Assembly (NCBI GenBank): GCA_002774635.1
Contig: PEXU01000043.1
Location: 1-43,270, forward strand
Origin: Candidatus Kerfeldbacteria bacterium CG08_land_8_20_14_0_20_40_16
Lineage (GTDB): Bacteria > Patescibacteriota > Patescibacteriia > UM-FILTER-42-10
Direction of reading: 5' to 3'
Length of the DNA: 43,270 bases
The notes beneath the pieces were generated by a model that worked only from the letters and a program-made list of their open reading frames with translations, did no database searches and was not told the origin of the DNA. Positions 8,390-33,889 of the stretch are shown in pieces; the first letter of the stretch is position 1; every line of letters begins with the position of its first letter. A program made the translations under genes and the position numbers.

Positions 8390-9787
8390 GTGCCAAAAGA
8401 GAAGGGAAAACTTTTTATTATCTCCGGTCCCTCCGGAGTGGGCAAGGATTCGGTAATTGAAAAAGCCGAAGAGCTTGGCTTAGAATTTGGCCGAGTAATA
8501 ACCACCACTACCCGCAAACCCCGGATTGGTGAAAAGGAAGGAAAGCCCTATTATTTTATCAGTAAGCCCCAGTTCTTAAAACTGATTAAAGAGGGGCAGT
8601 TTTTGGAGTGGGCGGAAGTTTACGGCCATTACTACGGCAGCACTAAAAAGGAAGTAGAAAAAGCATTGGCTGACCACAAAGTGATGGTTATGAAAGTTGA
8701 TCCGCAGGGCGCCCGGGCCATTAAAAAAATGATGCCTGATGCTCAAACAATTTTCGTGGTACCGCCTTCCCCCCAATCTCTAGCTCAAAGATTAAAGTTA
8801 AGAAAAACAGATTCAGCGGAGGTAATAAAAAAGCGTTTGGCTGTAGCTAAAAAGGAAATGAAAAACTTAGCGGAATGGAACTTTGTGGTTATTAACAAAG
8901 AAGATAAATTGAAAGAGGCCGCCCTGAAGGTAAAAAAAATAGTGGAGGGTTCCGCTAATAGAATGTTGGGAAGAAAGATTCTATTTGTTTTTTTGGGGAG
9001 TTTAATCATCTTCGGTTATCTTTTTCTGCTAGGCAGTACTCATCCTGATACCAAACAAACAGTTCGAAACCTAATTCAAAAAATTACCATCCCCTTAGAG
9101 ATTAATAATCGCATCCGGCAATCGCAAGCAATGCTGAATTTGCTTCCCAACTCAGCTTATTCGGCATTCTTAGTAGATTTTAATGCTCTGGGAGATATTA
9201 CTGATTTGATTCCGGCCATAATGACCGCCCCTAATTTTGACCAGCCCTCTATTTCGAAAGCTTTAATTGTTTTTCAGAAAAACGGTAGAATTTCAGGAAC
9301 AGTTTTTAAACTCGAAAATCCGGTTGAACTAAACTGGGAAAGATTTCAGAAAGCTGTCAAGTATTTCTGGGCCAGTAAATACCCTTCCCAAGAGACCAAA
9401 ACCTTAAGTGATAATAGCGAATTTGTTGAATTAGTGCCTGATCCAGAAAAAATACCGGTTGAGTCCAGTAGTTACGAAGGGCAAGAAATAATAGTTGTGA
9501 TCGGAGAAGAAATCTCACTGGTCTATGCCCGAGTAGGAAATTACGCAGTTTTAACCGCTAATTCTTCTCTTGATCGCTCAAAACAGGATATTTACCAAAT
9601 CATTGATGCTAACGGAAAAACAGAAAAAAGAGCAAATCTTAAATCCTTGCGGAGATGTTTAGAAGAAAATTCTTATCAGCTAACTCTTTCTAGATCTGGC
9701 ATTAGCCTAAGTGAAGTTTTGGACGGAAATCCGATCCTCTCTCTTCTTTTTGGCCAAAATAAGCCAAAAAGCGAAAAATGCATCTAA
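8390..9787 (+). CDS. gmk: Guanylate kinase fused in frame to a membrane-anchored domain
   Basis: Residues 1 to about 187 are guanylate kinase, which phosphorylates GMP to GDP: GPSGVGKD P-loop at 13-20, TTTRKPRIGEKEGKPYYF, EFLEWAEVYGHYYGS (written here with Q for the first E), DPQGARAIKK and the lid region around QRLKLRKT. Position 20 of the P-loop is Asp where Ser/Thr is usual. The frame then runs on without a stop into GSANRMLGRKILFVFLGSL: a transmembrane segment (about 196-213) and some 250 residues of an exported domain that I do not recognise. The start is GTG at 8390. An ATG at 8962 has GGAGGG 13 bases upstream, so the second part could also be made alone. The kinase part is of normal full length. 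Confidence 0.85.
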   Translation: MPKEKGKLFIISGPSGVGKDSVIEKAEELGLEFGRVITTTTRKPRIGEKEGKPYYFISKPQFLKLIKEGQFLEWAEVYGHYYGSTKKEVEKALADHKVMVMKVDPQGARAIKKMMPDAQTIFVVPPSPQSLAQRLKLRKTDSAEVIKKRLAVAKKEMKNLAEWNFVVINKEDKLKEAALKVKKIVEGSANRMLGRKILFVFLGSLIIFGYLFLLGSTHPDTKQTVRNLIQKITIPLEINNRIRQSQAMLNLLPNSAYSAFLVDFNALGDITDLIPAIMTAPNFDQPSISKALIVFQKNGRISGTVFKLENPVELNWERFQKAVKYFWASKYPSQETKTLSDNSEFVELVPDPEKIPVESSSYEGQEIIVVIGEEISLVYARVGNYAVLTANSSLDRSKQDIYQIIDANGKTEKRANLKSLRRCLEENSYQLTLSRSGISLSEVLDGNPILSLLFGQNKPKSEKCI

Positions 9788-9917: not shown

Positions 9918-9946
9918 TTGACAGGGTTGTATTAATATGATATATT
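9918..9946 (+). promoter_or_regulatory. Consensus promoter of the candidate non-coding RNA
   Basis: TTGACA at 9918-9923, exactly 17 bases, TATATT at 9941-9946. The predicted start is near 9953. No coding start of a long frame follows. Confidence 0.85.
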
Positions 9947-9952
9947 TAAGAT

Positions 9953-10322
9953 AGTCAAAGACGATTTTTTTCGGAATTTGTAAGCTATTTGCAAATCCTA
10001 TCCTTTTTGATAGTAAAGAGATTTTCCCTATAATTAGCCAAATTTTGGCCGATTATTGTAGGGAAGCGGTTCTTTACTATTTTGAAGAGAGCAAAAAACA
10101 AAAATAAAAGGGTTCTTCGTAATAAAAATATGAATGAACCACAAAAATGGTAAAGAAATCATTTTTTATCTAAAGCTCTCAAAGGATAGAAAATGCGTTT
10201 AGGGTCTTTATAAACACAATCTTCCAATTATCTTCTGATGAAAGGAAGTTGAGTAAAGGCCTTGGGCGCAACAGCGTCTATTAATAACATTGTTAAATTG
10301 GGCGCTAGTTGCGCCCTTTTTC
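9953..10322 (+). ncRNA. Candidate structured non-coding RNA, about 370 nt, unassigned
   Basis: The 605 bases between gmk and 10394 hold no plausible protein gene, but do hold a consensus promoter, several mutually compatible helices and a strong terminator. CTATCCTTT (9998-10006) pairs with AAAGGATAG (10181-10189) and closes a junction. Inside it, a tall hairpin spans 10010-10080 (10-bp ATAGTAAAGA/TCTTTACTAT, then TTCCCTA/TAGGGAA, capped by GCCAA/TTGGC). A second branch is closed by GAGAGC (10087-10092) and GCTCTC (10175-10180), with GGTTC/GAACC inside. Downstream are GTTTA/TAAAC, CTTCC/GGAAG and the terminator. I looked for landmarks of RNase P RNA, tmRNA, 6S and SRP RNA and recognised none. 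It reads toward the DksA-like gene but ends before that gene's own promoter. Confidence 0.65.
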
Positions 10323-10324
10323 TT
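10264..10324 (+). terminator. Rho-independent terminator of the candidate RNA
   Basis: GGGCGCAACAGCG (10264-10276) pairs with CGCTAGTTGCGCCC (10303-10316) with a single bulge, then a T run. The loop of 26 bases can form a small inner hairpin. Confidence 0.85.
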
Positions 10325-10393: not shown

Positions 10394-10753
10394 ATGGATA
10401 AAAATTTCATAAAGGAAATGGAAGCAAAGCTAAAAGAACAGCAGAAGAACTTGCGAAAGGATTTGGCTAGTTTTGCTGAGAAGAACGTCCACAAAAAGGA
10501 CGATTACAATACAAGATTTCCCAATTATGGGAACAAGGACGAAGAAAACGCCGTAGAGGTTGCGGACTTTCAAGATAACTTATCACTAGAAAACGACTTA
10601 GAAAAAAATCTAGCCGAAGTAGGCAAAGCTTTAGAAAGAATTAAAATAGGAACTTACGGCAAGTGTGAAAAGTGCGGAAAGAAAATGGGCCGGGAACGTT
10701 TAGAGGCCTTTCCTGCGGCAATTACTTGTGTCGATTGTAAAAATCTATCTTAA
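10394..10753 (+). CDS. DksA/TraR-family zinc-finger protein
   Basis: 119 residues. A helical hairpin region (about residues 5-85, rich in Lys and Glu) is followed by a C4 zinc finger, CEKCGKKMG...CVDCKN (C-x2-C-x17-C-x2-C, about residues 95-117). This is the layout of DksA/TraR and of the shorter YteA-type proteins. DksA enters the secondary channel of RNA polymerase and modulates promoters with ppGpp. Whether this short member does so is not known. It is followed 22 bases later by lspA. The start ATG is supported by nearby promoter elements rather than a Shine-Dalgarno sequence. Confidence 0.88.
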   Translation: MDKNFIKEMEAKLKEQQKNLRKDLASFAEKNVHKKDDYNTRFPNYGNKDEENAVEVADFQDNLSLENDLEKNLAEVGKALERIKIGTYGKCEKCGKKMGRERLEAFPAAITCVDCKNLS

Positions 10754-10775: not shown

Positions 10776-11246
10776 GTGAAAAAAACAACCAAGAATTTTA
10801 TTCTTATTAATCTTGGAATATTTTTTTTATTTTTAGTAGATCGATTTTCAAAATGGTATGCCGTTTCTTTTTTAGGAGAAGAGCAACACTATGTTTTTCT
10901 GAAATTCTTTAGGATTAAACTTTATTTAAATGAAGGGATTGCCTTTAGCGTTTCTTTTTACCAGCCGCTGATTTATTTAATCAATATTTCTATTCTGTTG
11001 ATATTATTTGCTTTCTTAAGAAAGGAATATCTAAATAAAAACAAAACGGCAATTGTTGGCTTAACTTTAATAATAGTAGGAGCAATCAGCAATCTTTTAG
11101 ACCGATTAGTGCAGGGAGCGGTAATTGATTTTATTAATTTACGGGTTTTGCCGATATTTAATTTTGCTGACCTGATGATTGTATCGGGGGTGTTCGTCTT
11201 GGTTTTTAAACTATTCCCTATTAAGCAGCATGAGAAAATTCATTAG
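10776..11246 (+). CDS. lspA: Lipoprotein signal peptidase (signal peptidase II)
   Basis: 156 residues with a four-segment membrane pattern. The two catalytic Asp motifs are present: ISNLLDRLVQGAVIDFI (about residues 108-124) and FNFADLMI (about 130-137). VDRFSKW near the first segment and LYLNEGIAFS are also family signatures. The enzyme cuts the signal peptide of prolipoproteins at the lipobox cysteine in the cytoplasmic membrane. A likely substrate is encoded in this window at 41333. The start is GTG at 10776, preceded by AGAG. The end overlaps the RNHCP gene by 17 bases. Confidence 0.94.
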   Translation: MKKTTKNFILINLGIFFLFLVDRFSKWYAVSFLGEEQHYVFLKFFRIKLYLNEGIAFSVSFYQPLIYLINISILLILFAFLRKEYLNKNKTAIVGLTLIIVGAISNLLDRLVQGAVIDFINLRVLPIFNFADLMIVSGVFVLVFKLFPIKQHEKIH

Positions 11247-19488: not shown

Positions 19489-22400
19489 ATGGTAGAAGAA
19501 GAAAACAAATACAATCACCAAGCGATAGAACCAAAATGGCAGAGGCGCTGGGAAGAAGCCGGACTGTACCAGGCCAAAGACAATTCCCTTAGGCCAAATT
19601 TTTATTGTCTAATTGAATTCCCTTACCCTTCTTCTGACGGTTTACACGTAGGCCATCCCCGAAGCTATACGGCCTTGGATATTCTGGCCCGCAAGAAAAG
19701 AATGGAAGGGTATAATGTTTTGTTTCCGATCGGGTTTGATGCTTTTGGCCTACCGACCGAAAATTATGCCATTAAGGTCAAAAAAAATCCGGCGGAAATA
19801 ACCGAAACCAATGTTGACCGTTTTCGCCGGCAGTTAAAATCGCTGGGGCTTTCTTTTGATTGGTCGCGGGAAGTGATTACCACTGACCCCCAGTATTACA
19901 AATGGACCCAGTGGATTTTTTTGCAATTATATAAAGCTGGATTAGTCTATCAAAAAGAGATGCCCATTAATTGGTGTCCTTCTTGTAAAATTGGTTTAGC
20001 TAATGAAGAGGTGGTGGGCGGAAATTGTGAACGCTGCGGCACTCCAGTTACTAAAAAGAATCTAAAGCAATGGTTATTCAAAATAACCAAGTACGCTCAA
20101 AGATTAATTGATGATTTAGAAAAAGTGGATTACTTAGAAAAGATAAAAACCCAACAGGTAAATTGGATCGGTCGATCGGAGGGTGCTTTGATTAAATTCG
20201 AAATTCGAAATTCGAAATTCGAAACAAATTCTAAATCCGAAATTCCAAATTCCAAACATTATGTAGAAGTATTTACGACTCGGCCGGATACTTTATTCGG
20301 AGCAACCTACATGGTGGTGTCCCCGGAGCACGAGCTAGTGACAGATATCCTTGGGCAAATAGCTAATCGCAGAGAAGTAGAAGACTATGTCAAAAAAGCA
20401 AAAGCCAAATCCGATTTAGAAAGAACCGATTTAGCCAAGGAAAAAACCGGCGTGGAATTAAAAGGAATTAAAGTAATCAATCCGGTTAACCAAAAAGAAA
20501 TCCCAATCTGGGTAGCAGATTATGTATTAATGGGCTATGGTACTGGCGCGATTATGGCGGTGCCGGCGCATGATAAAAGGGATTTTGAATTTGCTAAATT
20601 AAAGAATCTAAAGATAATTTGTGTTGTTGATCCTGGTAACACAGAGAATATAAATCCTGCAAATACTTTCAAATATCCATTTAGAAAGAAGATAGAAAAA
20701 CCAGGTAAACCTGTTTTATATACAACGGGCGATGTTGGTTATAAGTGGGATGCAGAAAAAATCTATAAAGAAATACTAAATGGAGAAACATGTTATGAGG
20801 GTAATGGAATAGCTATTAACTCAAATCAATTTAATGAATTAAAGACCGAAGAATTCAAAGCGAAAATCACCAAATGGCTAGAAAAAGAAAGAGTCGGCAA
20901 AAAAGCGGTTAACTACAAATTGCGCGATTGGATTTTTTCTCGTCAGCATTATTGGGGCGAGCCGATTCCATTGGTGCATTGTGAGGAATGTAAGAAAAAT
21001 AATAAACCAATTGTTTGGATTATCCATGGTTCGCCAAGTCGTAATAAAAGTCAAGATCAAGGCTACACAGGAGAGGAAAATCAGCATTGGATTCCATGGC
21101 TCAAGGAAAGTCTTGAAGCAAAAGGAGTGGTTGTTTATAATCCACGCATGCCAAAAGCTTGGCAGCCAGATTATCAGGAGTGGAAAAAAGCAGTGGAAAA
21201 ATTAGAAATCAACGAGAATAGCGTATTAATTGGCCACAGTGCTGGTGGAGCTTTCTTACCAAGATGGCTGGGAGAAACTAAAAAGAGGATAAATAAACTT
21301 ATTTTGGTGGTTCCTGGTAAAGTAGCTAATGAGGATAATAAAAGATTGCACCATTTTTATGATTTTAAGATTGATCAAACTATTAAAGAAAGAGTTAATG
21401 AAATAATTATCTTTATTTCTGATAATGAGAAAGATTATCGCAAAAAAAGTTCTAAAATATATAGCAAGTTATTAGGAGGCAGATTAATAACAATTAAAGG
21501 CACGGGGCACTTTACTTTTGAAGACATGAAGACTAAGGAATTTCCTGAACTTTTAGATGAAATAAGCTTTCTGCCAGTGGGCGTTATCCCAGTACCTGAA
21601 AAAGATTTGCCTGTAGAACTCCCTAAAGTAAAAAATTACGAACCAACTAATACCGGCGAATCTCCTTTAGCGGCGATTAAAGATTGGGTAGATGTGAAAT
21701 GCCCTCAATGTGGCGGTAAAGGAAAAAGAGAAACCGATACCATGCCGAACTGGGCCGGATCAAACTGGTATTTTATTCGCTACACTGATCCGCGCAATGA
21801 TAAAGAGTTTGCCTCTAAAAAAAACATGAAGCACTGGCTGCCGGTAGATATTTATAACGGCGGCATGGAACATACCACGCTTCATCTTTTATATTCCCGT
21901 TTCTGGTACAAAGCGCTTTATGATTTAAAGCTGGTGCCTGGTCCGGAACCATATAGCAAAAGGATTTCCCACGGCATGGTTTTGGCCGAAGATGGCAAAA
22001 AAATGTCCAAATCTTTGGGCAATGTTATTAACCCTGATGAAGTGGTGAAAGAATACGGGGCTGATACCATGCGGATGTACGAAATGTTTATGGGTCCTTT
22101 TTCCGAAGCAATTCCCTGGGATACAAAGGGAATTGTGGGAGTGAGGAGATTCTTAGATAAGATTTGCAAGCTTAAAGTTCAAAACTTAAAATTAAAAACT
22201 ACAGCTCAAAATTCAAAGTTGGAAAGCCTATTACATAAAACAATAAAGAAAGTTACGGAAGATATAGAAAATTTTCGATTCAATACCGCTGTTTCTACTT
22301 TAATGGAGTTGGCAAATGCTATGGAAAAACAAAAAGAACTGCCCCTTACTCATTACAAAATACTTGTTACTCTCCTCTCTCCCTTCGCTCCTCATCTTTC

Positions 22401-22677
22401 CGAAGAGCTTTGGGAAAAACTGGGGCATAAAGAATCTATATTTAAAGAAGAATGGCCCAAACACGATCCTGATTTAGCAAAGGAAAGCGAAGTGGAGTTT
22501 GTCATCCAAGTGAACGGCAAGGTAAGAGACAAGATGCAGCTGCCGGCTGATATTTCGGAAGAAGAAGCAATTAGCAAAGCCGAGCAAAGCAAAAAGATTA
22601 AAAAACACCTCTCTGGAAAACAGGTGGTTAAAAAAATATTCGTTCCGGGCAAATTGTTAAATATCGTAATAAGGTAA
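19489..22677 (+). CDS. leuS: Leucyl-tRNA synthetase with an inserted serine-hydrolase domain
   Basis: 1062 residues against about 800-870 usual for bacteria. The class I core is intact: HVGH at 53-56, ZN-1 module with four Cys (CPSCKIGLANEEVVGGNCERC), a CP1 editing domain (TTRPDTLFGATYMVVSPEH; GTGAIMAVPAHDKRDFEFA), RDWIFSRQHYWGEPIP, CPQCGGKGKRETDTM, and KMSKS at 838-842. The C-terminal anticodon and tail domains end in VVKKIFVPGKLLNIVIR. Between HCEEC and GVIPVPEKDLPVELP, normally adjacent, sits an extra domain at about 505-693 (described separately). AT-rich repeat text is also read in frame at about 235-257 and 897-912. It charges tRNA-Leu; both halves of the synthetase retain their motifs, so it should be functional. 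Confidence 0.96.
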   Translation: MVEEENKYNHQAIEPKWQRRWEEAGLYQAKDNSLRPNFYCLIEFPYPSSDGLHVGHPRSYTALDILARKKRMEGYNVLFPIGFDAFGLPTENYAIKVKKNPAEITETNVDRFRRQLKSLGLSFDWSREVITTDPQYYKWTQWIFLQLYKAGLVYQKEMPINWCPSCKIGLANEEVVGGNCERCGTPVTKKNLKQWLFKITKYAQRLIDDLEKVDYLEKIKTQQVNWIGRSEGALIKFEIRNSKFETNSKSEIPNSKHYVEVFTTRPDTLFGATYMVVSPEHELVTDILGQIANRREVEDYVKKAKAKSDLERTDLAKEKTGVELKGIKVINPVNQKEIPIWVADYVLMGYGTGAIMAVPAHDKRDFEFAKLKNLKIICVVDPGNTENINPANTFKYPFRKKIEKPGKPVLYTTGDVGYKWDAEKIYKEILNGETCYEGNGIAINSNQFNELKTEEFKAKITKWLEKERVGKKAVNYKLRDWIFSRQHYWGEPIPLVHCEECKKNNKPIVWIIHGSPSRNKSQDQGYTGEENQHWIPWLKESLEAKGVVVYNPRMPKAWQPDYQEWKKAVEKLEINENSVLIGHSAGGAFLPRWLGETKKRINKLILVVPGKVANEDNKRLHHFYDFKIDQTIKERVNEIIIFISDNEKDYRKKSSKIYSKLLGGRLITIKGTGHFTFEDMKTKEFPELLDEISFLPVGVIPVPEKDLPVELPKVKNYEPTNTGESPLAAIKDWVDVKCPQCGGKGKRETDTMPNWAGSNWYFIRYTDPRNDKEFASKKNMKHWLPVDIYNGGMEHTTLHLLYSRFWYKALYDLKLVPGPEPYSKRISHGMVLAEDGKKMSKSLGNVINPDEVVKEYGADTMRMYEMFMGPFSEAIPWDTKGIVGVRRFLDKICKLKVQNLKLKTTAQNSKLESLLHKTIKKVTEDIENFRFNTAVSTLMELANAMEKQKELPLTHYKILVTLLSPFAPHLSEELWEKLGHKESIFKEEWPKHDPDLAKESEVEFVIQVNGKVRDKMQLPADISEEEAISKAEQSKKIKKHLSGKQVVKKIFVPGKLLNIVIR
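20191..20258 (+). repeat. AAATTCG tandem repeat read in frame within leuS
   Basis: Four tandem copies of the 8-mer AAATTCGA, followed by similar degenerate units, code for IRNSKFETNSKSEIPNSK between the core and the editing domain. It looks like an intergenic-type AT-rich repeat inserted in the coding sequence without breaking the frame. Confidence 0.75.
21003..21566 (+). other. RBBP9/YdeN-like alpha/beta hydrolase domain inside LeuRS
   Basis: Residues about 505-693 of LeuRS read as a whole small alpha/beta hydrolase: WIIHGSPS (oxyanion side), NQHWIPWLKESLEAKGVVV, WKKAVEKLEINENSVLIGHSAGG, LILVVPGK, IIIFISDNEKDY and ITIKGTGHFTFED. The triad candidates are Ser584 in GHSAGG, Asp645 in SDNEKDY and His674 in GTGHFTF. 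Sequence style and length match the RBBP9/YdeN family, normally free-standing. The domain is inserted without loss of flanking synthetase motifs and in frame. Confidence 0.85.
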
Positions 22678-25552: not shown

Positions 25553-28500
25553 ATGGAAGAGGGTAATCAACAATTCAATTCCAAGACAAAAAAAAGCTTG
25601 ATCAGCAGCTTAATTTTGTTTATTCTTATTTTTCAGATTTTATTACTTGTTCCCAGACCCGCCCAAGCCATATTTGGAGCAGGTGATGTTACTTTTTCTA
25701 CCATAGTTGCTGACATTCCCGGTAAAATTTTGGATACGATGAAAAAACTGGTAAAACAGGTTGTGGCAAGTGCTTATAAAAACGCTTTAAGAACTTTTAC
25801 TCAAAAGATTGCTTATAATACGGCGGTTAAAATCGCCAGCGGTGGCGCTGGACAAGGACCTTTATTTACTACCAAGGAATTTACTTCATTATTAAGAGAT
25901 GCTGGAGATGCTGCTATTGGGGATGCGCTGGATACGATGTCTACTGAAGCCTGGGGATTCAGTCTTTGCGATGCCGATCCTAAAATTAGAATAGATATCC
26001 AAGCCAACCTAGCGCTTGATTTGGGAATCTCGGAACCACGTCAAGCGAAATGTACCGGAAGTGAAATTTTTAATAACCTGGCCAATGCCCAGCCAATTGA
26101 GGTAACGGGCGGCTTGGGCATTGGCATTGCCGGCCAAGATCCCGCGCAAGTATCAGCCGCATTAATGAAATCTTTTCCTGAAGTCTTTAGCCCGGAGGGG
26201 AATAATTTGGGGCAGTATTTAAAAATGTATTCTCTAACCAAAGAAAAAGAGGAAAAAGCGAAAGAAAAAGCTAAAGAAGAAGCAACCTCCGAGGGTGGCT
26301 TCCTTCCTTTAAAAAGCATAATTACCGGCGATACCAAAACACCGGCCAAAACCATTGGGGGAACCCAGCTGTTTTCTTTAGAGCAGGCGATTAATCCAGA
26401 CAATACTTTTACCGGTGAACTGGCCGCTGACTTCATAGGGGTTTTTACCAATACCTTAATTAAGAAATATATGGAAACCATTTTAACCAAAGGGTTGAAT
26501 CCTGGTGCCGATACTTCTGGAGGAAATTTAACAAATTTGCTCGCTGGAGGGGGTTCCGGAATAGCAGCGGCCGAAGCCAAATTCGCCTCGTTTACCCAAC
26601 CTAATCTAGGCGGCGGCGGTTCAATAGATATTTTGAACAAACTATCCATTTGTCCGGCTCAGTATGCTGAAGTAGAAAACTGCGTGATGGATTCTAATTT
26701 TAGAACGGCCGTGGAGCAACACTTACGGGTAGAAGAAGCAATTGAAATGGGTTATTTGGATGGCGGTAAACCTTTTGGCTACGGTCAGGGCGGATCTTTG
26801 CTTGATTATCAAAGCGGCTATGCTTACCGCAATCTGGTAATTATGCGCAGACACCGGATAGTGCCGGTCACTTGGGAACTGGCCGCTCAATACATTATGG
26901 ATTATGGGGCGGGTAATTACAGTTTGAATGATTTAGTCGCTTTATACGATGATGAGACCTCTCCTTTCTACCACTTAATCGATCCGGATTGGGTGTTGAA
27001 AGCGCCGGATAACTATTGTCGCCGGCAGGGCTATGGAGAAGGAACAGTATTTGATGAATATTTCGACCACGATGGTGAAAACGTTACTCCTAAAGTCAGA
27101 GAGGTTCAAAGACAGGAAACTTGCGTGGATGATCAATCCTGTATTGCGGAAAACGTTGATGGCACCTGCCAAGCCTACGGCTACTGCATCAAAGAAGATC
27201 CCATCTGGAAATTCAGCGGAGATCAATGCCCTGATTACTATGCCAGCTGTAAAACCTATCAAAGCAGAGACGGTCAGCAAACTTCCTACCTGGAAGATAC
27301 CTTAGATTTTAACGGCTGTACCGCCGACAACGTCGGGTGTCAGTGGTATTGCAAGCTATATGATGATGCTAATGAAAGATGGAGGTGTTATTGGGATGGG
27401 GATGATTACGGTTATTACGGCAGTTCTAATCCTTGGGGCCCAGCAGCAGTAAATAATAATCAGTATTATGACTGGCTGGCTCATTTAGATGCCAGCGCCC
27501 AAACCTGTGATGCCAGCGCCGAAGGATGTCAGGAGTTTTTAAGAACCACCAGCGGCACCAATTTAATTAAGAATGACAATTTTGATTACTTTACCGGCAC
27601 CGTGGATGATGGAGTTCCAGACACCGTTAATTCTTGGGACCCGCAAGGCGCGGCTGCTCCAGAAATAGTAACAATTGATACCACCACTCCTTATCGGGGA
27701 TACAATGCGGTAAAACTTCCGCATGGGGCTCCCGCCAGCGACAGTATCCGTTATACTCACGTCAGCACCAGATCAGTGATAGGCCGTACTTTTACTTTCT
27801 CAGTCTTCGCTAAATCGGACGACAGCGCCGCTTGCGGGGGAAATGCCAGTATTAAATTGAGCACCAATTTAGGGAGCAGTCTCGTAACTCTGCCCATTGA
27901 TAATCTAAACAATAGCTGGCAAAGGTATGAGTTAAGCCAGACTTTTGATGTGAATTTTGATAATGTGGAAGTCTACCTGGGCGTTGATAGCGGATGCAAT
28001 GTATTTTTTGACTCCGCTATGTTAGAAGAAAAAGTAATCGGCGAATCGACTAATGCCGGTGAATTTATTGATTACGGCACAGTTAATAAGCTCTATCTTG
28101 CCGGCGAAAGGCTTTCTTGTTCCGACGAGGATGTCGGCTGTCAGTGGTATACCCCGCTGGCTGGCGGTGATCCGGTTCCCGCTAAAATATCTTCTGATGA
28201 TCTGTGTTTAGAAAGCGAAGTTGGCTGTAAAGCCTATGAAGAAACGCCATTAACTAATATTATTCCGGATTCGAATAATGTGAATCGAACCGGAAAATAC
28301 TGTTCCGTGGTGCCGCCGTCAGGCATACCCACACCGTGTTATTCTGATGAACCGCCTGACGATTGTCCTGGTGCTAACAATTACTGCTATCCCAGCATCT
28401 CATTAATCGCTTCTACGGGCACCCAATGCTCTGCCGCTTATGTCGGTTGCGAAGAATTTACCAATTTGGACGAAGTGGCCAAAGGGGGTGAAGGCAAAGA

Positions 28501-31500
28501 ATATTACACCTTCTTAAAACAGTGCGTTCCTTTAGACGATCCTAGTATTGCTACTTACTATGCTTGGGAGGGCGATGAAGTGGCCGGCTACCAGTTAAGA
28601 GCTTTCAAGCTGAAAGTAAGTAATTTGAACCCCTTTCCCGGTGAAAGAGGAAGAGCGCCTTGTACTCATTTAGAGATTGGGGAAGATCTTCCTCTTGATT
28701 GTAAGGATACTTCAACAAACGTTCAGGAATGTTCTTCGGTTTACGGAACCGATCCGGATTGCATAGAATTCTTTGATGCCAGTTTACGTACTTTTTACCG
28801 TTATAAATCGCAAACCATTACCGTCTCGGATAACTGCCACCCGGAAAGAAACTCACTGGATGATCAAGTTTATTACGGACTGCCTTCAGAAAGCACCAGC
28901 TGTCCGGCTTCCACGGCAGGTTGCCGGGAATATTTAGGCAATGCCGGCTATAATTATCAGGAAATATTTAATGATAATTTTGAAGGTGGAACAATTCAGG
29001 AGTGGTGGGGTGGTACATTAAGCAATGCATCCATTATTGCAGGAGGCCATTCAGTTTTCGCTACTAGCGAACTGCATAGGAATATTGATGGCCTGACCGA
29101 GGATAAAAAAACATATTTACTTACTTTTTGGGCCAAAGGCAACGGCACTCCTCTTATTCATTTTATGAATGCAATTCCCGGTCCCGGGCGCACTGGTATG
29201 TTTGCTGATGATGAGCCTAGTACCCCTGCTCCCGAAATTACTCTTGACCCAGACGAGTGGCATTCTTATACTCTTGGTCCTGTGACAATAGATATTAATG
29301 ATTCAGATAATTGGCTTAATTTTCTTCCTGCCGAGCTGTATATTCATAATTTGAGCGGAGAGAGTTTCTTTGACAATATTGTCCTAACCGAAACCACGGA
29401 CAATATCTATTTAATCAGAGGTTCGGCCACCATCTGCACCGGATCAGAAAACTGCGCGGCTTATCAAGGCGCCAACAATCAAACCTATTACTTAAAGTCA
29501 TTCACCAAACTTTGCGCTGAAGAAGTGGCCGGCTGCGAGGAATTGATTGATACCAGGAACACTTCTAATCCCTACAGTGAAACATTTGGCACGGAAACAC
29601 AGAGCATAATTTATACTTTTGATGATGTCACCGTTAATTACGTCAATAATCCTGAAGTTTACTGTGATGCTGCTGACCGCGGCTGCCGGGCATTGGGTAG
29701 ACCGGTAATTACTCCTAACGATCCCGACGTGCTGACCGATTATGAAACGGTCTACCTTAAAGACGACGCGGAACAGTATTCCACTATTTGGTGCGACCAA
29801 TCAGAAGTGGGCTGTGAGCAGTACAGTTTCAGCGGCGGATCAGGAACCGCCTACTTTAAAGATCCGGGCGCTAAAGTTTGCGAATATAAACAGCCGACTG
29901 GCTCCTTAGTTTATGATTGGTATAAGAGCGGAACAGAGGAAGAATGTCCGACCACTAATCCTCCTGATGATCCAGCACCGTTTATTCCTAATCAAGGTTG
30001 GGTCGGATTATGCACTAACCAGTACGACGGCTGTACCGCCTATCGCGATCCAAGGGATCCGGTAGGATGCAACCCGGATTATCCTTATGAAGTAGATGAA
30101 TACAGCAACCCGATTAGGCGGGTATCGTCCCCGGGCTGTGAAACCTATTATTATATCAACTACAGCGTAGACCAGAATTCCTGCAACGGAACGGTAGATG
30201 AGCAGAAAGGCTGCAAGCTGTTCTATGACACTGATGACCCCGCCAATGTTTTCACGGCCGATTTAAGCCCGGATGGGCAAAAGACGTATTGTGATGATTC
30301 CGACCCCAGTTATTATGGAGCGGTCTGTACTACCGATTCTGATTGCGGCAGTGGCACCTGTGTCGAAAACGTTGAATCGGGAATACCTTATAACTGCGAT
30401 CAAACAGTGGTTGATCCCACCGATCCTTTGTTCTGCGATTCTAATTCGGTAATTAAAGTAGAAAGAGACCGGGTCTGCGACGAGTGGCTCTATTGCAAAA
30501 CTTCTTTGCAGGTAGATGATCCAAATGATTCGGACGGTGACGGTCAGACCACGGAAGAAGCCTGCGTTGAAATTGGTACCTGCAATCAATTGGGAGCCAG
30601 CGGGCTGTGCAGTCATCCGATAGAAGAAAGCCCGGTTAACGTAACGGGCGGAATCGCCGGCTATGATCTTGATCAATTCCAAAATATGTCCGGCTTTGTC
30701 AGCGCCGGTTTGATGTACGGCTGTTCCAATGACTATGCCATCAGCTGTACCGTTGCCACCGAAGATTCCGATTGCGGATCAGGGAATCATTGTGAAATCA
30801 TTGAAGGCTATTTTCCTTATTCGGAAATGTACGAGGTGGGATTGGGCGGAGCCAGCGTTGATGACTTGGTTCCTTTCGGCGATTTTGAATCCGATTCCAC
30901 AAAAAATTTCATGGTTTGCGAGGGCGCTGGTGATCAGAAAGAAGCTTGTTTAGATGATAGCCAGTGTCCGAGTGGTGCAAGTGGTGCTTGCCACGGGTCT
31001 GATAAGTGGGGTGTCATTAGCTCTGGTCGTATCGACATAACAGAGGGTCCAGGAAATTCAGCGGCATTGGATGAAAATAATTATCTGCTTTATACCGCCG
31101 AAGACAGCAGTTCAAACGGCCAGGGAGTAAGGGTGAACTTAGGCCCCAATATTGCCAACCTTCAGGAATATACCGCTTCTTTTGAATTCAAATTTGAAGA
31201 TCCGCCCGCGGCCGGCCAGTCGGCAATAACCGTTTCGTTTGCTCAATTTGATGACGTCGTGCCGACCAGCATTATTTGGCAAGAATCTTTAGGCCAATTT
31301 GAGGGCACCACCGGCTGGCAGCAGTACATTATTGGCCCCTATGCCACTCAAAACGTTTTGGATGAAAGCAAGGATGTCTATCTTCTCTTTAAGAACAACA
31401 GCGCTAATTTATCATTCAGTTTAGAAAATGTTTCCCTAAAGCCGGTGCTGGCCGTCCAGTCCGCTGAAACCGGCGGGTTAAGAGGAGATTACTATGACTT

Positions 31501-33889
31501 AACAGGAGATATAGAAACGGGAGTTTTATTGCATCAGAGATTTGGAGCGTACAACAGCACGCTTTACAGCGATTACCTTGATTACAGTCCGTTTAATTCA
31601 GTGCTGGAAAACCAAACCGGCAATCCGAACGGCGATATGAGCGCGGTGCGCTGGACCGGCCAGGTCTTGGCCGATACCACCGGCAGCTACACTTTCTGGT
31701 TTGACGTGGATGACGGAATCAAGTTTTATATTGATGATCTGGATACGGATGTCTGGGCTGGAGCGAATTGGAATGACGGCGCCAAAGAAGTTTCTTATAC
31801 CGCCTCAAGCCTTTCCGCCGGCTGGCATAACATTAAAATAGAGTACTACCAGAATGAAACCGGCGCTAAAATGCGCTTTGGCTGGGATCCGCCCACCGGC
31901 GGCCGGGTGTATCCGGTGCCGGCTGATCATTTAACGCATGAAGGCACCCCCAGTTACCTGGCGCGTTCCTGCCGGGCCTACCCGCGGGAAGATTCTTTAG
32001 CCTGCCATTATGTGGATGATGATTTACTGGAATTCAACGGCTGGCAAGGTTACTGCATTGAAACTGATCCCACTAATCCCAACCGCTGTCTAACCTGGTG
32101 GCCGGTTGATATTATCTCCGGTGAATCTTCGGTCTTCGGCACTATTGAACAAGCAGGTTATCAGGACCGCACCTCGCTTTATATGTGTCTGGAGGCGGAG
32201 GGGAATTATAATAATATTGATACTTTTATCGCGAGTTATGGCAGCATAGCTTTCTTAGAAGCTGAGACTGGTGGATTTTCCGGCGGAGTAAATCATACCT
32301 CACCCCTAATTGGTGAAACTTTGCAATATAGGCGTCCCATCCAAACAAAAATAGATGGTGGCGTGCATTCGGCTGAACCATTTAGTTGTGGTAATATAGA
32401 AGCTTTTATACCGTGTGGAGAACTAAATGCGGCAGGGATTTGTGGCTGTAATGCAGAAGATATATATAGAGGCAGTCGACCAGTAGATCCACGAGACCAG
32501 TATTATGAGTGGGAAATAGAAAGAATTGATTGGACTCTTCAAAGATCTTCTCATGCGGATTGGGAAGTTACGCCACTTACTTTTACAATGAATGCTCCTA
32601 ATTGGGAAGTTGATTGGCATAAAGACAGTTGCGATAGTGAAAATTGTCTTTATATAAAAGCATATTTCGATTCGGATGACAAATTGGAAAGTTTTGATGT
32701 ACATATGGCAGATGGGAGCGGTGATGATGGTGGCGCGTGGTATGCCGGCATTGTTTATTTACGGGAACCCTGTACCGAAATAGCCAAAGTAGTAGATGTT
32801 GCCGAAAACAAAGCTTGGGCTAATCGCACCTCTGCTACTAGTTCGTATGAAGTGCCTGATCTTTACTATAATTACAGCAGCGATGAAGCTCCTTTTGGCG
32901 CCAGTTATGCCGGCAATGTGGATCCCCACCTGGGCGTTGAAGGAGGAGCCTGGGATGGTAAAACAGAAGATGGCCAACAGCCGGTTTATGTAGAGAACAA
33001 AGATACTACCCCGACTACTAATGCTACTAATCAGAATCGAGCCGGCCGGCCTTACAGTTGTGAGGGAGATTGTACTGGAAAGGTATGCTTAGGTGGTCCT
33101 CATGATGTAGCTAATAGTAGTACTCAATATCCTTGTGCTAATGATAGTGATTGTGAAGGCACTGATCCAGATGATCGAGGATTCTGCGTTGGGGTAGGTA
33201 CTTGTACGAAAGCTAGTCCTAGTGATCCTGATGTTGCTTGTACTAGTAATGCCGATTGTTCTGGAGAAGTCTGTGCCGGAATTCAGGCGAGCGGTTGGGG
33301 CGACGGTTTATCCGGTCCCAATACTTGGGCGATTGACCGCCTGAAGCGCCTTTTTGCCAAACCTTATGGCGCTTGGAGCTGGAATAGTAGTCTGGGAAGA
33401 TATGATCGAAACGACACCCTGATGAGTAGTTGGGTGACCGCTTTTAACAATATGGTGCTTTGCAATGGAACCGGTGTAGGTCCTCGGCCTGGTTGGTCTG
33501 CTGATTACTGTGCTATTCTTCCCCACGTGGAAAATATTGAGGTAAATGGCGTATCCGGTAATGTTACTCTTTCTAGCGGCGGCACAATCAATCTAACCTT
33601 TAACAACTTTGTTGATCCGGAACAGGAAGCTTTGAAGAAAATAACTGTTGATTGGGGCGACGATTCAGAGCTAACAAGCGTAATTTGGAACGGCGCTCCC
33701 AAAACGGATCCGGCTAATCCGCATTTGCTGTCTCATTCCTATAGTTATAATGGCAGTCCTTATACCGCCCAGATTGAGATTATGATTGAAGACAACTGGG
33801 GCTTCTGCAATGTGAATGGTCGAGATTGCAACATTGATGCTTTTAACTATGATTTCTTTGGCGGAGCAGTTGAAGTAACAGCGCCGTAG
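25553..33889 (+). CDS. Giant secreted cysteine-rich surface protein with PA14 domain
   Basis: 2778 residues with a signal segment (SLISSLILFILIFQILLLV, cleavage likely after PAQA). The N-terminal ~330 residues are low in Cys and partly helical. From about 587 to 1550 there are some eleven copies of the motif C-x5-G-C-x2-(Y/F), such as CSDEDVGCQWY, CSAAYVGCEEF, CDQSEVGCEQY. Between them lie jelly-roll, carbohydrate-binding-like segments (about 670-815, 1133-1270, 1770-1965). A PA14 domain spans about 1972-2135 (GLRGDYYDLTG; FWFDVDDGIKFYIDD). C-x-DSDC-x-SG-x-C knots occur at about 1589, 1733, 1785, 2526 and 2561. The end (about 2665-2760) is PKD-like. Function unknown; binding of glycans on a host or neighbour is a reasonable guess. 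It is followed by the DUF559 cassette and the VirB6-like gene. Confidence 0.85.
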   Translation: MEEGNQQFNSKTKKSLISSLILFILIFQILLLVPRPAQAIFGAGDVTFSTIVADIPGKILDTMKKLVKQVVASAYKNALRTFTQKIAYNTAVKIASGGAGQGPLFTTKEFTSLLRDAGDAAIGDALDTMSTEAWGFSLCDADPKIRIDIQANLALDLGISEPRQAKCTGSEIFNNLANAQPIEVTGGLGIGIAGQDPAQVSAALMKSFPEVFSPEGNNLGQYLKMYSLTKEKEEKAKEKAKEEATSEGGFLPLKSIITGDTKTPAKTIGGTQLFSLEQAINPDNTFTGELAADFIGVFTNTLIKKYMETILTKGLNPGADTSGGNLTNLLAGGGSGIAAAEAKFASFTQPNLGGGGSIDILNKLSICPAQYAEVENCVMDSNFRTAVEQHLRVEEAIEMGYLDGGKPFGYGQGGSLLDYQSGYAYRNLVIMRRHRIVPVTWELAAQYIMDYGAGNYSLNDLVALYDDETSPFYHLIDPDWVLKAPDNYCRRQGYGEGTVFDEYFDHDGENVTPKVREVQRQETCVDDQSCIAENVDGTCQAYGYCIKEDPIWKFSGDQCPDYYASCKTYQSRDGQQTSYLEDTLDFNGCTADNVGCQWYCKLYDDANERWRCYWDGDDYGYYGSSNPWGPAAVNNNQYYDWLAHLDASAQTCDASAEGCQEFLRTTSGTNLIKNDNFDYFTGTVDDGVPDTVNSWDPQGAAAPEIVTIDTTTPYRGYNAVKLPHGAPASDSIRYTHVSTRSVIGRTFTFSVFAKSDDSAACGGNASIKLSTNLGSSLVTLPIDNLNNSWQRYELSQTFDVNFDNVEVYLGVDSGCNVFFDSAMLEEKVIGESTNAGEFIDYGTVNKLYLAGERLSCSDEDVGCQWYTPLAGGDPVPAKISSDDLCLESEVGCKAYEETPLTNIIPDSNNVNRTGKYCSVVPPSGIPTPCYSDEPPDDCPGANNYCYPSISLIASTGTQCSAAYVGCEEFTNLDEVAKGGEGKEYYTFLKQCVPLDDPSIATYYAWEGDEVAGYQLRAFKLKVSNLNPFPGERGRAPCTHLEIGEDLPLDCKDTSTNVQECSSVYGTDPDCIEFFDASLRTFYRYKSQTITVSDNCHPERNSLDDQVYYGLPSESTSCPASTAGCREYLGNAGYNYQEIFNDNFEGGTIQEWWGGTLSNASIIAGGHSVFATSELHRNIDGLTEDKKTYLLTFWAKGNGTPLIHFMNAIPGPGRTGMFADDEPSTPAPEITLDPDEWHSYTLGPVTIDINDSDNWLNFLPAELYIHNLSGESFFDNIVLTETTDNIYLIRGSATICTGSENCAAYQGANNQTYYLKSFTKLCAEEVAGCEELIDTRNTSNPYSETFGTETQSIIYTFDDVTVNYVNNPEVYCDAADRGCRALGRPVITPNDPDVLTDYETVYLKDDAEQYSTIWCDQSEVGCEQYSFSGGSGTAYFKDPGAKVCEYKQPTGSLVYDWYKSGTEEECPTTNPPDDPAPFIPNQGWVGLCTNQYDGCTAYRDPRDPVGCNPDYPYEVDEYSNPIRRVSSPGCETYYYINYSVDQNSCNGTVDEQKGCKLFYDTDDPANVFTADLSPDGQKTYCDDSDPSYYGAVCTTDSDCGSGTCVENVESGIPYNCDQTVVDPTDPLFCDSNSVIKVERDRVCDEWLYCKTSLQVDDPNDSDGDGQTTEEACVEIGTCNQLGASGLCSHPIEESPVNVTGGIAGYDLDQFQNMSGFVSAGLMYGCSNDYAISCTVATEDSDCGSGNHCEIIEGYFPYSEMYEVGLGGASVDDLVPFGDFESDSTKNFMVCEGAGDQKEACLDDSQCPSGASGACHGSDKWGVISSGRIDITEGPGNSAALDENNYLLYTAEDSSSNGQGVRVNLGPNIANLQEYTASFEFKFEDPPAAGQSAITVSFAQFDDVVPTSIIWQESLGQFEGTTGWQQYIIGPYATQNVLDESKDVYLLFKNNSANLSFSLENVSLKPVLAVQSAETGGLRGDYYDLTGDIETGVLLHQRFGAYNSTLYSDYLDYSPFNSVLENQTGNPNGDMSAVRWTGQVLADTTGSYTFWFDVDDGIKFYIDDLDTDVWAGANWNDGAKEVSYTASSLSAGWHNIKIEYYQNETGAKMRFGWDPPTGGRVYPVPADHLTHEGTPSYLARSCRAYPREDSLACHYVDDDLLEFNGWQGYCIETDPTNPNRCLTWWPVDIISGESSVFGTIEQAGYQDRTSLYMCLEAEGNYNNIDTFIASYGSIAFLEAETGGFSGGVNHTSPLIGETLQYRRPIQTKIDGGVHSAEPFSCGNIEAFIPCGELNAAGICGCNAEDIYRGSRPVDPRDQYYEWEIERIDWTLQRSSHADWEVTPLTFTMNAPNWEVDWHKDSCDSENCLYIKAYFDSDDKLESFDVHMADGSGDDGGAWYAGIVYLREPCTEIAKVVDVAENKAWANRTSATSSYEVPDLYYNYSSDEAPFGASYAGNVDPHLGVEGGAWDGKTEDGQQPVYVENKDTTPTTNATNQNRAGRPYSCEGDCTGKVCLGGPHDVANSSTQYPCANDSDCEGTDPDDRGFCVGVGTCTKASPSDPDVACTSNADCSGEVCAGIQASGWGDGLSGPNTWAIDRLKRLFAKPYGAWSWNSSLGRYDRNDTLMSSWVTAFNNMVLCNGTGVGPRPGWSADYCAILPHVENIEVNGVSGNVTLSSGGTINLTFNNFVDPEQEALKKITVDWGDDSELTSVIWNGAPKTDPANPHLLSHSYSYNGSPYTAQIEIMIEDNWGFCNVNGRDCNIDAFNYDFFGGAVEVTAP

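Follow-up and report, generated by a model that had tools for sequence, protein, structure and literature searches.

A probable stand-alone structured RNA gene with a covarying loop-loop core in Patescibacteria

The stretch of DNA analysed in this study (43,270 nt of a Candidatus Kerfeldbacteria genome; hereafter referred to as the window) carries, in the intergenic region that separates the guanylate kinase gene (8390-9787) from a dksA/traR-type zinc-finger gene (10394-10753), what appears to be a stand-alone, strongly transcribed and probably trans-acting structured RNA gene, which belongs to a family found across Patescibacteria. Based on comparative sequence analysis, we estimate the probability of this reading at about 0.8. 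Positions 9918-10321 have the make-up of a complete RNA gene, as judged from the sequence, i.e. a promoter, a structured transcript of approximately 370 nt and a strong terminator (Table 1). The gene makes no protein. An earlier note on this DNA had suggested that a housekeeping RNA has diverged here or that the RNA represents a new class; the lack of an Rfam match, the conservation and the covariation described below support a new class.

The RNA gene and its conserved core

Table 1. Predicted features of the RNA gene and its usual downstream neighbours in the window
Feature	Coordinates	Strand	Basis and remarks
sigma70-type promoter TTGACA-17-TATATT	9918..9946	+	Sequence; TTGACA 9918-9923, 17-nt spacer, TATATT 9941-9946
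RNA transcript	9953..10321	+	Start predicted from promoter, end from terminator; fold z = -10.8 and family conservation
S1 strand	10010..10020	+	Rivals P1 by 11-bp pairing with 10070-10080; part of tall hairpin
H1 hairpin	10023..10066	+	Directly 5' of P1; constrained fold; by eye, hairpins at same place in other families
P1 5' strand UUCUUUACUAUUUU	10070..10083	+	Pairs with 10144-10157; covariation, 99-sequence alignment A6
Loop-loop (pseudoknot) helix, 5' strand GAGAGC	10087..10092	+	Complementary to H4 loop
A-rich strand AAAACAAAAAUAAAA, almost invariant	10095..10109	+	Alignments A4, A5
H3 hairpin GGUUC:GAACC	10110..10140	+	Fold; GGU..ACC recurs by eye, no statistical count
P1 3' strand AAAAUGGUAAAGAA	10144..10157	+	Covariation as for P1 5' strand
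H4 hairpin, 12 bp	10160..10195	+	10160-10171 pairs with 10184-10195; loop holds GCUCUC (10175-10180)
H5 hairpin, lineage-variable	10201..10263	+	Fold
H6 terminator hairpin	10264..10321	+	Conserved inner stem, large AU-rich loop, U-run
dksA/traR-type zinc-finger gene	10394..10753	+	PF01258; usual downstream neighbour, outside RNA
lspA	10776..11246	+	PF01252; neighbour, outside RNA

The promoter and the strong terminator claimed in the earlier note were both located in the window, the latter also as part of the minimum-energy fold, with its final U-run at 10317-10321. The predicted transcript folds at -129.1 kcal/mol, whereas 100 dinucleotide shuffles averaged -76.6 ± 4.9 kcal/mol and none reached its value (0/100; z = -10.8); the RNAs of two relatives had a fold z of -6.3. 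The family's promoters and terminators were called from consensus matches. Upstream of the core, 72 of the 73 related loci have a predicted promoter-like site that agrees with the hexamers at 9 or more of the 12 positions (10-12 in most cases), and 68/73 loci still scored at least 10 when the re-scan was confined to plausible distances. A terminator was detected automatically in 50 of the 73, and further ones were recognised besides. In most relatives, H6 contains a second inner stem and an AU-rich loop of about 20 nt (83% A+T); the inner-stem score was 11.3 versus 7.6 ± 0.35 in shuffled sequences.

A boxA-like motif, G[CT]TCTTT, was found near the RNA start in 20/73 leaders (e.g. L038, L048 and L091), where 1.5 were expected (approximately 13 times the shuffles), while the window's own leader carries no such motif. 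The boxA of rRNA leaders binds NusB-S10, and by analogy the boxA-like leaders hint at stable-RNA-like transcription.

The conserved core consists of (i) the 14-bp helix P1, (ii) an almost invariant strand with the sequence AAAACAAAAAYAAAA, (iii) the hairpins H3 and H4, and (iv) a covarying pairing between loops. The consensus of P1 is yyUUyUUUACUrUUUU, paired with AAAAyGGUAAAGrr, and 13 of its 15 pairs were changed on both sides among 73 sequences. In alignment A6 (n=99), which like A5 was fitted to the covariance model, 549 cells of P1 and H4 were changed on both sides, compared with 170 ± 16 after shuffling (0/500) and 63-162 in slid controls. The covariation score of P1 alone was 0.67 (shuffles, 0.25 ± 0.01; slid controls, 0.18 at most). 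One C-G pair of this helix is invariant, and the adjacent pair is U-G in 87 sequences and U-A in 12. All six modelled pairs of the H4 stem displayed both-side changes in A6, with 85% of the cells paired.

In most members, the strand that follows the 5' side of P1 shows complementarity to the loop of H4, although its letters vary from one member to another: GAGAGC:GCUCUC in the window, and GAGGGU:ACCCUC, UACUGGC:GCCAGUA, UGCUGAC:GUCAGCA, CUUGACU:AGUCAAG, GUUUCGAC:GUCGAAAC and others elsewhere. The mean best score of this complementarity was 14.7, compared with 12.3 ± 0.3 for swapped partners (maximum of 100, 13.2). Since in most families the 5' strand lies, by eye, within the loop of a hairpin of its own (H2), the pairing would be a kissing loop; in the window's family H2 has been lost. 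The compensatory changes seen in P1, H4 and the loop-loop helix across divergent members point to a new structured RNA family.

Two competing folds

The minimum-energy fold of the window's RNA is the three-way junction described in the earlier note, i.e. the alternative to the conserved fold, whereas the comparative data give a different topology. A 6-bp branch of that junction, GAGAGC:GCUCUC, passed the covariation check and is the only one of the proposed helices to occur in both folds and in the whole family. The tall hairpin (about 10010-10080) and the closing 9-bp helix (9998-10006:10181-10189; CUAUCCUUU:AAAGGAUAG) are also part of the minimum-energy structure, but they occupy the 5' strand of P1 (10070-10080 with 10010-10020) and the 3' strand of H4 (10181-10189 with 9998-10006). 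Both are excluded from the conserved fold, because there 10070-10083 pairs with 10144-10157, and 10160-10171 with 10184-10195. When checked for covariation, the 9-bp helix was seen in the window's family only.

The two folds are predicted to be close in energy: -125.7 kcal/mol for the three-way junction versus -117.6 kcal/mol for the conserved fold, to which the 6-bp loop-loop helix would add about -8.3 kcal/mol (estimated). Across the 73 loci, S1 and S2, the latter being its partner in the 5' strand of P1, scored 14.8 with their own partners and 13.0 ± 0.24 with swapped ones (mean duplex energy -8.8 versus -7.6 ± 0.23), and this pairing was strong in only 20/73 loci, compared with 11.4 ± 2.6 in controls. 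The competing fold, which the RNA can also adopt in the lineage of the window and in some others, may represent a co-transcriptional folding intermediate or a regulatory switch. It leaves the terminator uninvolved.

Distribution and relation to known RNAs

Plain DNA searches revealed few true relatives. Within the genus and the family they found copies of 92% and 78%, respectively, and a short match in a relative at class level proved to be the same locus. Three further matches (L005-L007) were rejected as chance. The DksA neighbour, with a match in 343 of 381 class genomes, served as an anchor, and 24 of the 30 fetched dksA-anchored loci displayed, by eye, a strong promoter, 350-450 nt and a terminator, all 5' of dksA, usually together with the sequence AAAACAAAAAYAAAA or a near variant of it. 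A covariance model of the core (R1), built from 14 sequences of dksA-anchored loci, gave one match each in at least 74 of 240 class genomes under a strict search, a lower bound reflecting the 13 candidates scored per genome.

A second model (R2), built from 73 sequences, detected the RNA in 24 of 38 class relatives under a more sensitive search. In a second class it was present in 26 of 40 genomes, and across the phylum in 33 of 380. About a third of the class genomes gave no match even in the more sensitive search, which may reflect either divergence or real absence. The copy number was almost always one per genome, with a second, weaker match in G008 (in the search of the 38 relatives) and in G647 (in the phylum and second-class searches). 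The carriers named by a DNA-pattern scan and checked with R2 are Uhrbacteria, Falkowbacteria and Komeilibacteria, which belong to the class ABY1, and other Patescibacteria; entries with non-Patescibacteria titles in the same scan had a poor R2 score or none. Its recurrence across Patescibacteria, with a strong promoter and usually as a single copy, makes it a probable, so far overlooked housekeeping RNA of these tiny bacteria.

No Rfam 15 family matched the RNA in a scan of the window, either at gathering scores or at E<=10; the window RNA itself was scored against every model, and a scan of 40 related loci was likewise negative. The only Rfam families in the whole window were two tRNAs. Matches to tracrRNA (E = 0.65) and miRNA at E<=10 fell far below the cut-off and were rejected. 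The literature searched holds no description of the family, which may have been described already in a large structured-RNA survey (NAR 2017, gkx699).

The earlier note had recognised no landmark of RNase P RNA, tmRNA, SRP RNA or 6S RNA, and the model scans agree with this. RNase P RNA and tmRNA, which are of similar length, densely structured with pseudoknots and usually encoded by one gene per genome, resemble the window RNA in all three respects. They differ in being encoded elsewhere in the same genome, by separate genes (G000:C34:18032-18337 and G000:C60:1898-2282, respectively); RF00010 and RF00023 had no match at the window locus, and none of the defining landmarks of either RNA was seen in the window RNA.

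SRP RNA was considered as both of its models (RF00169 and RF01854) failed in the class (0/38 genomes each), and was dropped as SRP54 was missing too: its M domain (PF02978) was found in 0/38 class genomes versus 14/14 controls. The joint lack of both RNA models and the M domain in 38/38 genomes excludes an SRP RNA, and the SRP helix-8 signature was present in 0/99 family transcripts. The window's class thus seems, over the 38 genomes, to do without SRP altogether.

It is unlikely that the RNA is a very diverged form of a known housekeeping RNA, the most plausible candidate being 6S RNA. In favour of such an identity, the 6S model (RF00013) detected nothing in 38/38 class genomes, although the same search finds the 6S RNAs of E. 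coli and B. subtilis; moreover, size and copy number suit a housekeeping RNA, and a DksA-type gene adjoins. According to a report on these bacteria (PMC8172020), some of their RNase P RNAs have diverged so far that they fall short of the standard threshold, so the absence of an RNA as judged by a model is generally weak evidence. Against it, no Rfam model scores the window RNA, RF00013 had no match in the window or the related loci, two of the candidate RNAs are encoded elsewhere, and SRP seems absent as a system. The core of P1, A-rich strand and loop-loop helix is also unlike 6S RNA, which is a long bulged rod. The window RNA is twice its size and has a pseudoknotted multi-helix core, in contrast to the long hairpin with a central bubble of 6S RNA. 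The likeness between the two would be one of role only, i.e. an abundant stable RNA that may act on RNA polymerase, a role that could be vacant in genomes where 6S is undetected.

OLE, ROOL, GOLLD and raiA RNA are conserved structured RNAs that were found by comparative genomics ahead of a known function. The window RNA shares this route of discovery, but it matches none of them in Rfam and differs in lineage, architecture and gene context.

Gene neighbourhood and possible function

Most copies of the RNA lie upstream of dksA-lspA, with dksA downstream within the fetched flank in 50/73 loci, a rate biased upward because the R1 sequences were first found through dksA linkage. Accordingly, the RNA could be read as a cis-acting leader that controls dksA-lspA as a riboswitch or attenuator; H6 would then terminate conditionally, and the competing folds would provide the switch. 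The same gene order outside the class and the two near-isoenergetic folds are consistent with such a leader, but we regard it as very unlikely. A cis leader would always lie directly upstream of the gene it regulates, whereas about 20 of the 73 loci (23 by count, some of them with short flanks) have no dksA in the flank and keep the promoter. In L085, L087, L096 and L103, the promoter-bearing RNA gene is followed directly by lspA, without an intervening dksA, and elsewhere the next gene is rnhB (RNase HII; L080 and L108), one for a CCA-adding-type enzyme (L052) or one for a DHH protein (L083). Furthermore, in several of the linked loci dksA has a separate near-consensus promoter past the terminator, which the competing fold does not touch. 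Since promoter-bearing copies remain where the neighbours differ, the RNA persists even where its linkage to dksA is lost. The synteny may be just old gene order, and the RNA gene is better read as standing alone, probably acting in trans.

It is hardly credible that the RNA is catalytic or serves a mobile or defence system as a guide (e.g. tracrRNA-like or omegaRNA-like): the fold is compact and pseudoknotted and there is the weak tracrRNA match mentioned above, but the RNA is nearly always single-copy and for the most part syntenic. Among the window proteins scanned, none of CRISPR or TnpB/IscB type was recognised, and there was no phage match.

As a stand-alone gene, it would produce an abundant stable RNA that scaffolds an RNA-protein particle. 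The binding platform might consist of the compact loop-loop core together with the A-rich strand, while H6 could act as terminator and possibly as a second binding site. Our leading guess for the target, a rather doubtful one, is RNA polymerase or the transcription machinery, because 6S RNA is undetected in the class (with one model), the gene often lies beside dksA and many leaders are boxA-like; each of these observations is open to other explanations. Tentatively, the particle could be a phylum-specific housekeeping RNP, of a standing like that of 6S RNA or SRP, and could govern RNA polymerase or some other core machine, with a fold switch in some lineages; its host cells seem to have neither an SRP nor a recognisable 6S RNA.

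Few housekeeping RNAs of phylum scale are known, and on the present reading a large, mostly uncultured share of bacterial diversity would have an apparently unnamed structured RNA in common. The covariance model, promoter, named carriers and precise base pairs make its role in these small-genome bacteria directly testable.

Three open frames of the window are also worth mentioning. At its C-terminus the guanylate kinase has a long extension with a membrane-segment-like stretch, and a similar one is present in a family-level relative (L003, 1946-3274, minus strand). The region 25553-33889 is a single open frame of 2778 residues. Finally, the leucyl-tRNA synthetase (19489-22677) is interrupted between its catalytic pieces, at residues about 525-678, by an entire serine-hydrolase domain (PF06821) that bears a GHSAGG motif.
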